Shown here: positions 30,607-63,782 of the stretch, one piece after another
Layout: each line of letters begins with the position of its first letter
How positions within the stretch are numbered: the stretch's first letter is position 1
Assembly (NCBI GenBank): GCA_026986775.1
Contig: JALSNX010000022.1
Location: 27,520-91,519 of the forward strand
Source: Caldifarciminota bacterium
GTDB lineage: Bacteria; Hydrothermota; Hydrothermia; UBA1063; CAJXJZ01
DNA: 64,000 nucleotides
Direction of reading: 5' to 3'
Made by a program: the position numbers and the translations under genes
The notes under the pieces: generated by a model
What the model saw: only the letters and a program-made list of their open reading frames with translations
The model's database searches: none
Told to the model about the DNA's origin: nothing

Positions 30607-30639
30607 TTGACATAACATCCCCCCCCTCATTATTATAAT
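30607..30639 (+). promoter_or_regulatory. sigma70-type promoter with C8 homopolymer in the spacer
   Basis: TTGACA-TAACAT-CCCCCCCC-TCAT-TATTAT (18-nt spacer) or TATAAT at 30634 (21-nt spacer). Confidence 0.65.
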
Positions 30640-30667: not shown

Positions 30668-31882
30668 ATGATAAAGTGGATGTTCATATTGTTTCTGGTT
30701 AACTGTAAATCATGCGGGTCCCACAGTTACACAGCATGGGGCATCTGGTGGGACATTAACAGTATAAGCACAATAAAAGTCTATATAAGTGATAATTTTG
30801 GAAGTGTGATTAGAGATGCAATAATCAGGAATGTAATAAACACATGGGGAAGTTATACACCTGACCATGGATTTTCTTTGCAATACACTCCCTATCAGAG
30901 TGATTGTTACATAGGAATTTACATAGATTCTGACCTCGGTGCTGATGAGCTTTATATGGAAGAACTTGCCATAACTGACCCACTGTGCTTTAACGATACC
31001 ACAGGCAGGATAGATGCGCCCAGTCCGTGTCATCCTGCAATAAAAATAAGTGTGGCAGACCCACATTTGTTGGCACAGCATGGCAAAGACCTATATACGA
31101 TATTACGTCATGAGATGGGGCATGCACTTGGATTGTGGCACACCAGAGACACCGCATGTCTTATGTACCCTTATTACACCGGAGTGAAGGATATTGGTGA
31201 AGGTGAAGATAACGGCCTTACCTGCATTTATGGTACTTTGTTTGGAGATAGAGTCAGACCATCATCAGGTTCAGATACCAGAGCAAAAGTAATAGATAGA
31301 AGGCATGTTACCATAAAAATACTTGAGGGAGCCTGTAATGGAGATGGAACTAATGGTGCGGATTCAGCAAAAATAAAGATGAATTTTTACCATAATGGGA
31401 AAGGTATGACATGGGAAGTAATAGACAGTTTTAATTATGCATCAAGATACTACGAAGACAGTATAGTGGTTGAATTACCTGTTGATGACACAAATTATTC
31501 AGGATGGCGTGTTGTAAAGAGTTACATTTACTTTCCTGATACTGTAATTGTTAATATTTCAGACACCTTCAATTTTAATGCTTTAGAGGTGCATGAGAAA
31601 TCATATACCAGTGATTTCATGAAGGACTCAATTATCAAAGTTTCTTTCAAAGACGGTATTTTACTGGTAACTAACAATGGAGATTTTCCCGTAAAACTCG
31701 CCATTTACAATGTTGCTGGACAGAAGGTGTTAAAATCATTATACTTAAATCCGAGGGAAACAAAAGGACATCATTTAAAACCGGGTTATTATTTGATAAG
31801 AGGTGAGTATGAAAACAGTGAAAATAAAAAAGAGGTATTTGTTAAGCGTTTTATCATACCTTATAAAGGAGGTAAGTTATGA
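30668..31882 (+). CDS. Secreted matrixin-like (metzincin) metalloprotease with C-terminal secretion-signal-like domain
   Basis: RHEMGHALGLWHTRDTACLMYP (HExxHxxGxxH and Met-turn); C-terminal VKLAIYNVAGQKVLKSLYLNPRETKGHHLKPGYYLIRGEY. Confidence 0.85.
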   Translation: MIKWMFILFLVNCKSCGSHSYTAWGIWWDINSISTIKVYISDNFGSVIRDAIIRNVINTWGSYTPDHGFSLQYTPYQSDCYIGIYIDSDLGADELYMEELAITDPLCFNDTTGRIDAPSPCHPAIKISVADPHLLAQHGKDLYTILRHEMGHALGLWHTRDTACLMYPYYTGVKDIGEGEDNGLTCIYGTLFGDRVRPSSGSDTRAKVIDRRHVTIKILEGACNGDGTNGADSAKIKMNFYHNGKGMTWEVIDSFNYASRYYEDSIVVELPVDDTNYSGWRVVKSYIYFPDTVIVNISDTFNFNALEVHEKSYTSDFMKDSIIKVSFKDGILLVTNNGDFPVKLAIYNVAGQKVLKSLYLNPRETKGHHLKPGYYLIRGEYENSENKKEVFVKRFIIPYKGGKL

Positions 31883-58426: not shown

Positions 58427-58455
58427 ATTATAACATATAATTGAAGTTTGGTGAA
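58427..58455 (-). promoter_or_regulatory. sigma70-type promoter, leaderless configuration
   Basis: TTCACC-N17-TATAAT ending 8 nt before ATG 58418. Confidence 0.55.
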
Positions 58456-58555: not shown

Positions 58556-58583
58556 TTGACAATACCCCCCCCTATGTTATAAT
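58556..58583 (+). promoter_or_regulatory. sigma70-type promoter of RiPP-like locus with C8 homopolymer in the spacer
   Basis: TTGACA-ATA-CCCCCCCC-TATGT-TATAAT (16-nt spacer). Confidence 0.8.
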
Positions 58584-58603: not shown

Positions 58604-58627
58604 TTTCACTCGTCCGGATGGGTGAAA
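58604..58627 (+). other. 5' UTR hairpin of RiPP-like transcript
   Basis: TTTCACTCGT-CCGG-ATGGGTGAAA, 10-bp stem including G-U pairs. Confidence 0.6.
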
Positions 58628-58650: not shown

Positions 58651-58746
58651 ATGAAGGTGATAAGATACCCTCTACCAATGGGGAAAGCCATAAGAGATAG
58701 CCTGCATAAAGATAATTGTTGTAGGCAAAAAGCAAATATAAAGTAA
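58651..58746 (+). CDS. Putative RiPP precursor peptide (31 aa, Cys-Cys)
   Basis: MKVIRYPLPMGKAIRDSLHKDNCCRQKANIK*; strong SD aaaaggaggtgaatc; directly upstream of radical SAM/SPASM gene; absent from ORF track. Confidence 0.75.
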   Translation: MKVIRYPLPMGKAIRDSLHKDNCCRQKANIK

Positions 58747-58756
58747 TAGGTATAAA

Positions 58757-58785
58757 AGCCGGTCCCTATTTAAAAGGGACCGGTT
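58757..58785 (+). terminator. Strong intercistronic hairpin (attenuator/RNA stabiliser) after precursor
   Basis: AGCCGGTCCC...GGGACCGGTT stem without a following U-tract. Confidence 0.65.
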
Positions 58786-58809: not shown

Positions 58810-60126
58810 GTGAAGTGGACAATGTTTATGATGAAAGTTGAATCTAATAAGGAGGTGTTGCTGTATAATACCTATAATAGAGCGGTTGTTATTCTGGATA
58901 AACTGGAGTATAATAATATAAACGATTTGATTCATGGAAAAAAAGTAAAAGAAGTGCAAAGTAATAAGAGTGAAGTAAAAAGTCAGATTGAGAAATTGCG
59001 TGAGATGAAATTTATAATGGAAGATGAAACGAATGAAAAGGAGGAATATTTAAAAGAATTGAAAGAATTTTACGAAAACGACGATTTTCTGGCTTTATTG
59101 GTGCTACCGACGACAGCATGTAATTTTGATTGTACTTATTGTTATCAGAAGGGGATTCCTCTTCATGTTGTTAACCGGAATATAATAGCATCTATAATGA
59201 GCCGAATAGAAGAATTATTGGAAGATAATAAAGAGATAAAAATGACTAAAATAGATTTTTTTGGCGGAGAACCCTTATTGAACTGGAATTTCATAGAAGA
59301 TTTTACAAAGGAATTTTCTTCTTTGATGAGAAAGAGGACAATAGATTATTTTTTAAAGTTGACTACCAATGGATATTTACTTGATTTAAATAAAATAAAT
59401 TTTTTATTAAAATATAACTTACAACAAATTCAGATTACCATGGACGGTCTTCCTGAAGTGCACGATAAAAGGAGAATGCTAAAAGGTACTCATAAAGGTA
59501 CGTTTGACAGAATATTTAATAACTTAAAGGGTCTACTTGATTTAAAAGACGCACGAGATTTGCTGATACTTTTAAGAATAAATTTTGATTACCAGAATGT
59601 AGATCATATTCCTGATTTTTTGGATTTCATAAAGAGAGAATTGGGCGTTGATAATATTGAAATTTCCTTTGGCCAGGTTACCAGCCCTATCAATTTTAAT
59701 TACGAATATATGATTCCGTTTGATGAAGTACCCGAACATTATATTAAACTTTATAAAGTGCGATTGGGTTTCACACTTTCAGACACTTTCACATTTGGTT
59801 CTCTATGCTTTGCGAAAAGGAAATTTAGCTATGTGGTTGCACCTAATGGTGATATATACAAGTGCGTAAGTTCGGTTGGTGTAGATAGAATGAAAGAAGG
59901 AAATATTTATAAAAATCCTCTATATAAAATAAGAGATTACCTGTTTGTTGACTTATACGATGAGTGTTTTAAGGAAAAGTGTCCCTTTATCCCGATATGC
60001 CATACTGGATGTAGATTCGTATCTTTCATAAGATATGGGGATATTAAGAAACGGGATTGTCACAGGGAAGAAATGAAAAGAATTAACTCAGAAATTCTGA
60101 AAATCCAGTATTTAGATGGATACTGA
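58810..60126 (+). CDS. Radical SAM/SPASM peptide maturase
   Basis: TTACNFDCTYCYQ; FGGEPLLNW; SPASM-like CVSS...CFKEKCPFIPICHTGC...DCHREEM; N-terminal peptide-maturase-like FMMKVESNKEVLLYNTYNRAVV. Confidence 0.88.
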   Translation: MKWTMFMMKVESNKEVLLYNTYNRAVVILDKLEYNNINDLIHGKKVKEVQSNKSEVKSQIEKLREMKFIMEDETNEKEEYLKELKEFYENDDFLALLVLPTTACNFDCTYCYQKGIPLHVVNRNIIASIMSRIEELLEDNKEIKMTKIDFFGGEPLLNWNFIEDFTKEFSSLMRKRTIDYFLKLTTNGYLLDLNKINFLLKYNLQQIQITMDGLPEVHDKRRMLKGTHKGTFDRIFNNLKGLLDLKDARDLLILLRINFDYQNVDHIPDFLDFIKRELGVDNIEISFGQVTSPINFNYEYMIPFDEVPEHYIKLYKVRLGFTLSDTFTFGSLCFAKRKFSYVVAPNGDIYKCVSSVGVDRMKEGNIYKNPLYKIRDYLFVDLYDECFKEKCPFIPICHTGCRFVSFIRYGDIKKRDCHREEMKRINSEILKIQYLDGY

Positions 60127-61799: not shown

Positions 61800-63782
61800 A
61801 TGAGTTTTATTGTTGCAGCATTGTTGTGTTTTGGTCACTGGAAAATACCCTCAAATTATATGCAAAAAGCCTGGGAGGTATACCGAATTTCATATCAGCA
61901 GCGTCCCTGTCCAGGCGCATCACCCAGCAGAACAACTGTAGTTTACTATTTCCATGATACAACCAATTTATATTTTGTCTTCAAATGCGAAGTGAGGGGG
62001 GAACAGGTAAAACGCTTATCTTTGCGGGACCACATTGATGGTGATGAGGTTTATGTATATATTACACCGAATAGACTTAAGGGTACAGGCTATTATTTCG
62101 CTTTAAGTTTCACGGGTATAAAAGGGGATGCTTATTCAAATAATAACGGAGAATCATGGAATAAAGACTGGGATGGTTTATGGTATTCAGATGTTGTATA
62201 TAAGGATTCTTTCGTGTTGCTTGGATTCAAAATACCTGTGTACAATTTTTTCTATACCGATAAATTGGACTGGAGTGTCAACTTCAAAAGATTTATTGCT
62301 GTTTATGAGGAGGAAGATTCTTATGTGAGGTTTGGCCCCTCAGGTCTGGAACCTATTTCCATGTATGCAGAATTACCCGTGGAAAACATAAAATTTAGTA
62401 CACATGTGATAAGAATATTTCCGAGTTTTACTATGAGGAAGTATTATGATGACAATAAGTACAGGATGTGGATGGGAGGAGATGTAGTTTACGCACCAAG
62501 AGCCAATTTTTTGACAGGCATTACTGTCTATCCGGATTATTCTGAGATAGAGTCTGACCCATATACCATTAATATATCAAAGTACAGGACATACTATCCT
62601 GAAAAAAGGGAATTTTTTATTAAGGATATGGATGTTTTCAGGACTCAAAAAGCATCTTTCTACTCAAGGAATGTGGGTGCAAAAACATCTTTCGGAGAGG
62701 TGATCCCGGTTAAATATGGCTTTAAATCACATTATTCCATTAAAAGCATGGATTTAGCATTGTTGAGTGTAATCACAGATGGGTTGGTGAGCAGTGATAC
62801 CGTGATATCTTCAGAAGTTTATACTCTTGGCAGGTTCAAATTTTCCCTGAGAAATGCGAGGGTGGGCTTTTTTTACGGAGAAGTAAGACATGATACCATA
62901 TTACAGAGTATAAAAACAGTAGATATTTCTTATGATAAAAAGAATCTGAGGTTGAAAGGCCAATTGAGCGAGGATAAATCACACAAAAGACTATTCTATT
63001 TAAAATCAATATACGAAAAGCGTGGTTTCTGGCTTATCTCGGAGATGGAAAACACAAATGACAGCTTTTCGGTTAATCGGATAAGCTATTATTATCCGGC
63101 GAAGAGAATCAGTTTAAAAGTACGGCGCGATTACTGGAATAGTAAGTATCTTTTGAAGAATTACTCATGGGGATTGGGTCTGGAAAGAGTGAAAGAATAC
63201 GGTGAAAATGAATGGACTACAGCCGGTAATTTTGACATGGATTGTGTATTCGCAAACAATTATGAACTCTATACGAATATTAAACTTATAAACGATTATG
63301 AACAGGGAAAAAAATTTTTAAGACGCTATGTTTATGTCTACTCCGGTACGGATTTTTCAAAGAAAATTGCGGGTGGTCTGAACATAACCTGGCAATCCAG
63401 AGAATTTGATTACATGTCAATGATTTTTGTAAGATCTATAAATGTACTTCCCTTTGTTCAACTGATGACGGAACATTTTGACCTGAGCACAAGTTATTCG
63501 TTTTACCTGTTGCGGGGCATTGAGAAGGATACAGTATTTAAATACACGACTTTTACTTTGAAAGGAACCGTATACTTTAACAGGCATTTGTTCGTCCGTT
63601 CCCTCTTATCTCAGGAAAACAGCGCAGATACTTATATCACCAATTTAATTTTAACATGGAAGTTTATGCCTGGAAGTTATTTATACTTTGTAATAAATAA
63701 GGATCTCAATATTAAAGATAACAGCATAAATTTTAAAAATTCTGCCAATGCATTCAAAGTAAAAATACAGTTCTGGCTATAG
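61800..63782 (+). CDS. DUF5916-like protein (CBM9-like N-terminal domain plus outer-membrane beta-barrel)
   Basis: YYFHDTTNLYFVFKCEV...DGDEVYVYITPNRLKGTGYYFALSFTGIKGDAY; YYPEKREFFIKDMDVF; amphipathic strands to a terminal aromatic-rich FKVKIQFWL; SD gaggagg. Confidence 0.75.
   Translation: MSFIVAALLCFGHWKIPSNYMQKAWEVYRISYQQRPCPGASPSRTTVVYYFHDTTNLYFVFKCEVRGEQVKRLSLRDHIDGDEVYVYITPNRLKGTGYYFALSFTGIKGDAYSNNNGESWNKDWDGLWYSDVVYKDSFVLLGFKIPVYNFFYTDKLDWSVNFKRFIAVYEEEDSYVRFGPSGLEPISMYAELPVENIKFSTHVIRIFPSFTMRKYYDDNKYRMWMGGDVVYAPRANFLTGITVYPDYSEIESDPYTINISKYRTYYPEKREFFIKDMDVFRTQKASFYSRNVGAKTSFGEVIPVKYGFKSHYSIKSMDLALLSVITDGLVSSDTVISSEVYTLGRFKFSLRNARVGFFYGEVRHDTILQSIKTVDISYDKKNLRLKGQLSEDKSHKRLFYLKSIYEKRGFWLISEMENTNDSFSVNRISYYYPAKRISLKVRRDYWNSKYLLKNYSWGLGLERVKEYGENEWTTAGNFDMDCVFANNYELYTNIKLINDYEQGKKFLRRYVYVYSGTDFSKKIAGGLNITWQSREFDYMSMIFVRSINVLPFVQLMTEHFDLSTSYSFYLLRGIEKDTVFKYTTFTLKGTVYFNRHLFVRSLLSQENSADTYITNLILTWKFMPGSYLYFVINKDLNIKDNSINFKNSANAFKVKIQFWL

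Follow-up and report, generated by a model that had tools for sequence, protein, structure and literature searches.

Homopolymer-based phase variation is known mainly from host-adapted pathogens and from surface antigens. In the opc gene of Neisseria meningitidis the poly-cytidine stretch is placed between the -35 and -10 hexamers, and the tract of porA in the same species is poly-G. Bacteroides capsule promoters, which are inverted by a recombinase, serve many operons of one functional class and give combinatorial expression. As cited in PMC5084427, the size of the opc promoter poly-cytidine changes expression (Sarkari et al. 1994, doi 10.1111/j.1365-2958.1994.tb00416.x; via PMC5084427), and variation in the spacing between -10 and -35 controls porA transcription (van der Ende et al. 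1995, doi 10.1128/jb.177.9.2475-2480.1995; via PMC5084427). In Helicobacter pylori sabA, a variable promoter T-tract acts as a rheostat that is more than a spacer and alters RNA polymerase binding (PMC4081817).

The locus described here, a promoter with a C8 tract in front of a RiPP operon, lies in a window of 64,000 nucleotides (the whole stretch of DNA that was analysed) from a member of Caldifarciminota, the current NCBI name of candidate division WOR-3. It is like opc in having poly-C in the promoter of an exported product and differs from it in that opc is one outer-membrane protein gene of a cultured pathogen, whereas about 18 promoters, about half of them at RiPP loci, are recognised here from the sequence of an uncultivated lineage. 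The single porA locus encodes a surface porin and carries poly-G, whereas the tracts here are of C. A promoter homopolymer of variable length is shared with sabA, the tract sitting here between the hexamers; and the Bacteroides promoters switch by DNA inversion, whereas homopolymer slippage is proposed here; on that proposal the two would be alike in providing each operon with a switching promoter of its own. No report of phase-variable RiPP or lanthipeptide clusters was found in the literature searched; slippage as such is an established mechanism, and the same papers contained no instance of it as a promoter cassette serving a repertoire of RiPPs in candidate phylum WOR-3.

Promoter and operon at the RiPP locus

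An earlier note on this DNA had described consensus hexamers separated by a 16-nt spacer upstream of the RiPP operon, had observed that C8 occurs at only two places in the window, both of them promoter spacers, and had proposed the tract as a candidate phase-variable switch. Direct reading of the sequence gave the order TTGACA, ATA, C8, TATGT, TATAAT, with exactly the spacer described, and placed the two C8 tracts of the window at 58565-58572 and 30619-30626, again as stated. The RiPP promoter was the sole 12/12 sigma-70-type match among 30 promoter-like sites between 56800 and 64000. The features of the locus are as follows.

58556-58561, plus strand: -35 hexamer TTGACA, read from the sequence and found by promoter scan
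58565-58572, plus strand: C8 homopolymer, proposed slippage site, inside the 16-nt spacer
58575-58583, plus strand: extended -10, TGT-TATAAT (TG at 58575-58576, TATAAT at 58578-58583)
58604-58627, plus strand: inverted repeat of the 5' leader, TTTCACTCGT-CCGG-ATGGGTGAAA, RNA stem-loop; leader about -10 kcal/mol
58651-58746, plus strand: candidate RiPP precursor, 31 aa, MKVIRYPLPMGKAIRDSLHKDNCCRQKANIK, preceded by AAGGAGGTG
58759-58783, plus strand: hairpin between precursor and maturase, a possible attenuator or mRNA-processing site
58810-60126, plus strand: radical SAM/SPASM-type peptide maturase, 438 aa
60138-61787, plus strand: ABC transporter, membrane and ATPase parts, 549 aa, likely peptide exporter
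61800-63782, plus strand: 660-aa protein that partially matches DUF5916, encoded at the end of the run

A short precursor, a radical SAM/SPASM maturase and an exporter thus stand in one run, as in radical SAM RiPP clusters. The maturase matched Radical_SAM at 62.5 bits and has conserved C-terminal cysteines in common with SPASM homologs; it scored below every NCBIfam equivalog cut-off (TIGR04463, TIGR04334 and others), the best being 177.1 bits against a cut-off of 525. The precursor candidate and that of the corresponding operon in a sister species (G003) are identical at 12 of 25 positions. The divergent promoter on the lipoate-ligase side has the same extended -10, TATGTTATAAT, as the RiPP promoter.

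The second C8 tract of the window lies upstream of a different kind of gene, and its -10 can be read in two overlapping registers: from TTGACA at 30607-30612, the spacer is 18 nt to TATTAT at 30631-30636 or 21 nt to TATAAT at 30634-30639.

30607-30639, plus strand: second tract promoter, TTGACA, C8 (30619-30626), TATTAT/TATAAT
30668-31882, plus strand: 404-aa product of the gene under the second tract promoter; signal-like stretch at the N-terminus, match to matrixin (M10 metallopeptidase)

Distribution of tracts in the genome

Genome-wide counts were obtained by pattern searches of the 2.18-Mb genome (30 contigs; contig positions are given below as contig:position). Within the window, C8 tracts alone are unsurprising because two or more of them occurred in 35 of 100 dinucleotide shuffles of it. 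Across the genome, 43 C8 positions collapsed to 21 tracts of C8 to C12, and 15 of the 21, read in context, sit between TTGACA and a TATAAT-type -10; this figure includes one promoter whose -10 is TATACT and another, right at the beginning of contig C27, that has no readable -35 and in its other parts agrees with the promoter at C8:505. The nine tracts of C9 to C12 lie without exception in promoter spacers, and the six tracts outside promoters are all exactly C8; at the density of C8 given by these six, the number expected in such spacers is about 0.001. A looser search added a C7 tract (C12:43204) and the interrupted tracts C5-TA-C3 (C18:18601) and C5-A-C7 (C2:27651), which brought the total to about 18 tract promoters with spacers of 15 to 21 nt. 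A reversed control pattern and a G-tract control pattern each gave 0 matches, and a chance origin of the placement is ruled out by the location statistics together with these controls.

Perfect-hexamer promoters with spacers of 14 to 21 nt numbered 68, as against 7 in the reversed control, and 15 of the 68 carried C7 or longer. Of the 15 promoters with a tract 6 had a 17-nt spacer, compared with 36 of the 53 that lack one (Fisher p = 0.07), an excess of non-17 spacers among tract promoters that is suggestive only. Three of the 18 tract promoters lie 600 bases or less from a contig end (binomial p = 0.003); this excess fits either length mixtures that break the assembly or repeated promoter sequence, and it was kept out of the evidence. 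Single tract lengths could also carry homopolymer assembly errors.

Genes under tract promoters

A profile of nine RiPP-type maturases identified eleven RiPP-type radical SAM loci, one weak fragment being left out. Promoters with a homopolymer in the spacer were found at 10 of these 11 loci and at one lanthipeptide cluster. The tract is of C at nine of the eleven (one interrupted, one with a decayed maturase); of the others, the locus on contig C9 has T19 before TATAAT, and only C4:3948 is without a recognisable tract promoter. The decayed maturase (L066, C27:151681-153009) has one TGA and four TAA codons in frame and stands behind an intact C11 promoter. That long-tract loci in general are dead clusters was considered and rejected, as the maturase frame at C1:199792 is intact (417 aa) and decay is confined to the C27 locus. 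On contig C4 a RiPP cluster and the C8 promoter in front of it are part of a 7.7-kb duplication, the two copies of which (L057 8564-16243 and L058 5321-13001) are 99.65% identical.

The C5-A-C7 promoter on contig C2 precedes a lanthipeptide synthetase (RamC_N, kinase and LANC_like matches), an ABC transporter and an outer-membrane beta-barrel protein. This cluster (L215 1652-8556), whose synthetase is of the LanKC type, encodes two precursor-like peptides with similar terminal cores (SMSWAFCSTLSMACT and AISYSFCSALSLGCN). The other tract promoters mostly precede proteins with lipoprotein- or signal-like N-termini, and the exported targets include a C25 peptidase with a Por secretion tail as well as the matrixin of the window (30668-31882). 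One tract promoter precedes a protein followed by a large Por-tail protein, and that at C1:48295 precedes a mixed gene set with an ABC transporter, the class of which is unclear. The targets are thus of the surface or secreted kind seen at porA/opc-type contingency loci: RiPP clusters, lipoprotein-like and secreted proteins, and C25 and M10 peptidases.

Proposed phase variation and alternative readings

From its anatomy and its genomic company, the C8 tract is probably the slippage element of a phase-variable sigma-70-type promoter, one of about 18 contingency promoters. Slipped-strand mispairing during replication would add or remove C residues and thereby shift the distance between -35 and -10: at the RiPP locus C8 gives 16 nt, C9 would bring it to the optimal 17, and poor spacing would result from C7 or from tracts of C11 upward. 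Spacer length would then set transcription of the operon (precursor, maturase, exporter and DUF5916 protein) in a heritable yet reversible manner, and with some 18 promoters switching, each cell would express its own combination of RiPPs and secreted proteins or lipoproteins. Promoter anatomy, the enrichment of tracts, changing length at orthologs and the kind of target are read from the sequences; slippage within the population is presumed, and so is an effect of spacing on expression, for which porA and opc of Neisseria are the analogy. At the RiPP locus the extended -10 may soften the switch by lowering its dependence on spacing and keeping a basal level. MutS is present in the genome, so slippage may be slow and an extreme rate is not predicted.

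The proposal of a candidate phase-variable switch made in the earlier note gains considerable support from the genome-wide set of homopolymer spacers, from tract-length changes at orthologs, from the exchange of C7 for T19 described below and from targets of the contingency type; it is refined in that the RiPP-locus site is one of a cassette family and no lone switch. We lean, with less assurance, toward the broader view that a clonal population would be a mixture of cells in which ten or more RiPP clusters each stand behind a slipping-homopolymer promoter of a shared cassette; the leader palindrome might then be the target of a regulator common to them. If this is true, it would suggest that natural-product repertoires can be bet-hedged cell by cell in an uncultivated candidate phylum.

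The cassette design is also what speaks for the strongest rival, namely that the C tract is an invariable promoter or operator element, either recognised by a sequence-specific protein or setting promoter strength through the DNA shape of G/C tracts, in a co-regulated regulon that does not vary in phase. The common layout is TTGACA, 2-7 nt, C5-C12, 1-10 nt and TATAAT, often followed by a palindromic leader 8 nt on and an AAGGAGG site, and with a single exception the non-template strand carries C in every tract, with no G tracts. At nine C-tract promoters the sequence CACC-NNNN-GGTG begins exactly 8 nt past TATAAT, and it occurs in that register at no other promoter of the genome. The centre of this palindrome is self-complementary in most cases (TCGA, TGCA, CCGG), though the sequences differ, and in most of the leaders that were folded the palindrome forms a stem close to the 5' end; examples in G000 are at L063 4602-4660 and C1:40921-40946 (minus strand, in L051). 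The RiPP-locus inverted repeat (58604-58627) sits farther downstream than this register. The leader palindrome may act as an operator or as a hairpin that stabilises the 5' end, and it could serve as an operator without any tract, a point against this rival.

A multi-locus slippage system of the PorA/Opc type predicts that the tract is kept with changing length, whereas a fixed binding site does not, and comparison of homologous loci bears on this point. In the sister-species (G003) ortholog of the window RiPP operon, whose maturase is 41-42% identical, the tract is C10 with a spacer of 19 nt, as against C8 and 16 nt. The operon at C18:57239 has C11 (spacer 18), and its orthologs have C8 in G002 (spacer 14) and C7 in G001 (spacer 15). 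Behind the T19 tract of the contig C9 operon (L061, minus strand, near C9:121452-121480) lies a maturase 73% identical to that of its G001 ortholog, which has C7 between TTGACT and TAAAAT; this T19 is the one case of T10 or longer shortly before TATAAT in four genus genomes. Paralogous promoters with similar flanks carry C8, C10 and C11, and the promoters at C8:505 and C27:1, which have the near downstream flank in common, differ as C8 versus C11. Three close copies (C4:174698, C4:191956 and C10:14772) are all C8, which counts against slippage, and the two interrupted tracts (C5-TA-C3 and C5-A-C7) may be fixed. Across the genus the spacing between hexamers at tract promoters ranges from 13 to 21 nt as tracts go from C5 to C12, a shift that a fixed site would tolerate poorly, and the replacement of C7 by T19 at one orthologous operon is likewise hard to reconcile with it. 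We therefore regard a fixed site as unlikely.

Still less probable is that these are constitutive promoters in which neutral C tracts, copied from an ancestral promoter, drift slowly in length with little effect. Several of the promoters are clearly copies of one another, including those of the 7.7-kb duplication, as such copying would have it. The tracts are nevertheless kept at orthologs that are only 41-73% identical in protein, the rest of the genome is devoid of long C tracts, tracts also occur in promoters whose flanks are unrelated (contigs C8/C27, C12/C4:103890 and C22), and there is a strong bias of the targets toward RiPPs and exported proteins. Promoter inversion in place of slippage at the RiPP locus seems very unlikely: the only exact inverted repeat, of 11 bp, flanks the -35 and the C tract (arms 58427-58437 and 58573-58583), and its match is explained by two divergent promoters having the same extended -10 box (TATGTTATAAT), one in each arm.

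Tract promoters in relatives and other lineages

Tract promoters were found in all four genus genomes, each a separate species, with 4, 3 and 2 exact matches in the three other members, and none was found in five other members of the order. G-tract versions were absent from the genus. In the rest of the phylum (147 genomes searched) matches were scattered, with two or three in G057 and G063; in G057, L230 and L233 are paralogous secreted-protein genes with C7 and C2-T-C9 spacers (16 and 21 nt). Viral contigs contained no copies of the specific tract promoters.

A pattern scan of one genome per species returned at least 116 stretches. By our own estimate, assuming even base composition, about 30 chance matches are expected in a collection of that size, so single matches mean little and repeated matches within a genome mean more. 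Among the matches listed, several each came from some Clostridia, Mucispirillum and Bipolaricaulota MAGs, many of them before lipoproteins. A pair of loci in one Bipolaricaulota MAG (C9 versus C12, downstream sequence 99% identical) was considered as possible alleles and rejected because the upstream sequences were mismatched. Recurrence in Mucispirillum, rabbit-gut Clostridia and Bipolaricaulota MAGs suggests that the design may reach further than is known from cultured organisms, and if the slippage reading is true, TTGACA-C tract-TATAAT would provide a sequence signature for finding such systems in metagenomes. The Mucispirillum promoters are likely a second, independent set. In that genus (L104, L107, L114, L117, L119, L128, L137, L151 and L155) promoters resembling TTGACA-C9-ATGATATAAT recur, mostly before lipoproteins and secreted proteins, and recurrent promoters of the same form are also present at many Clostridia loci.
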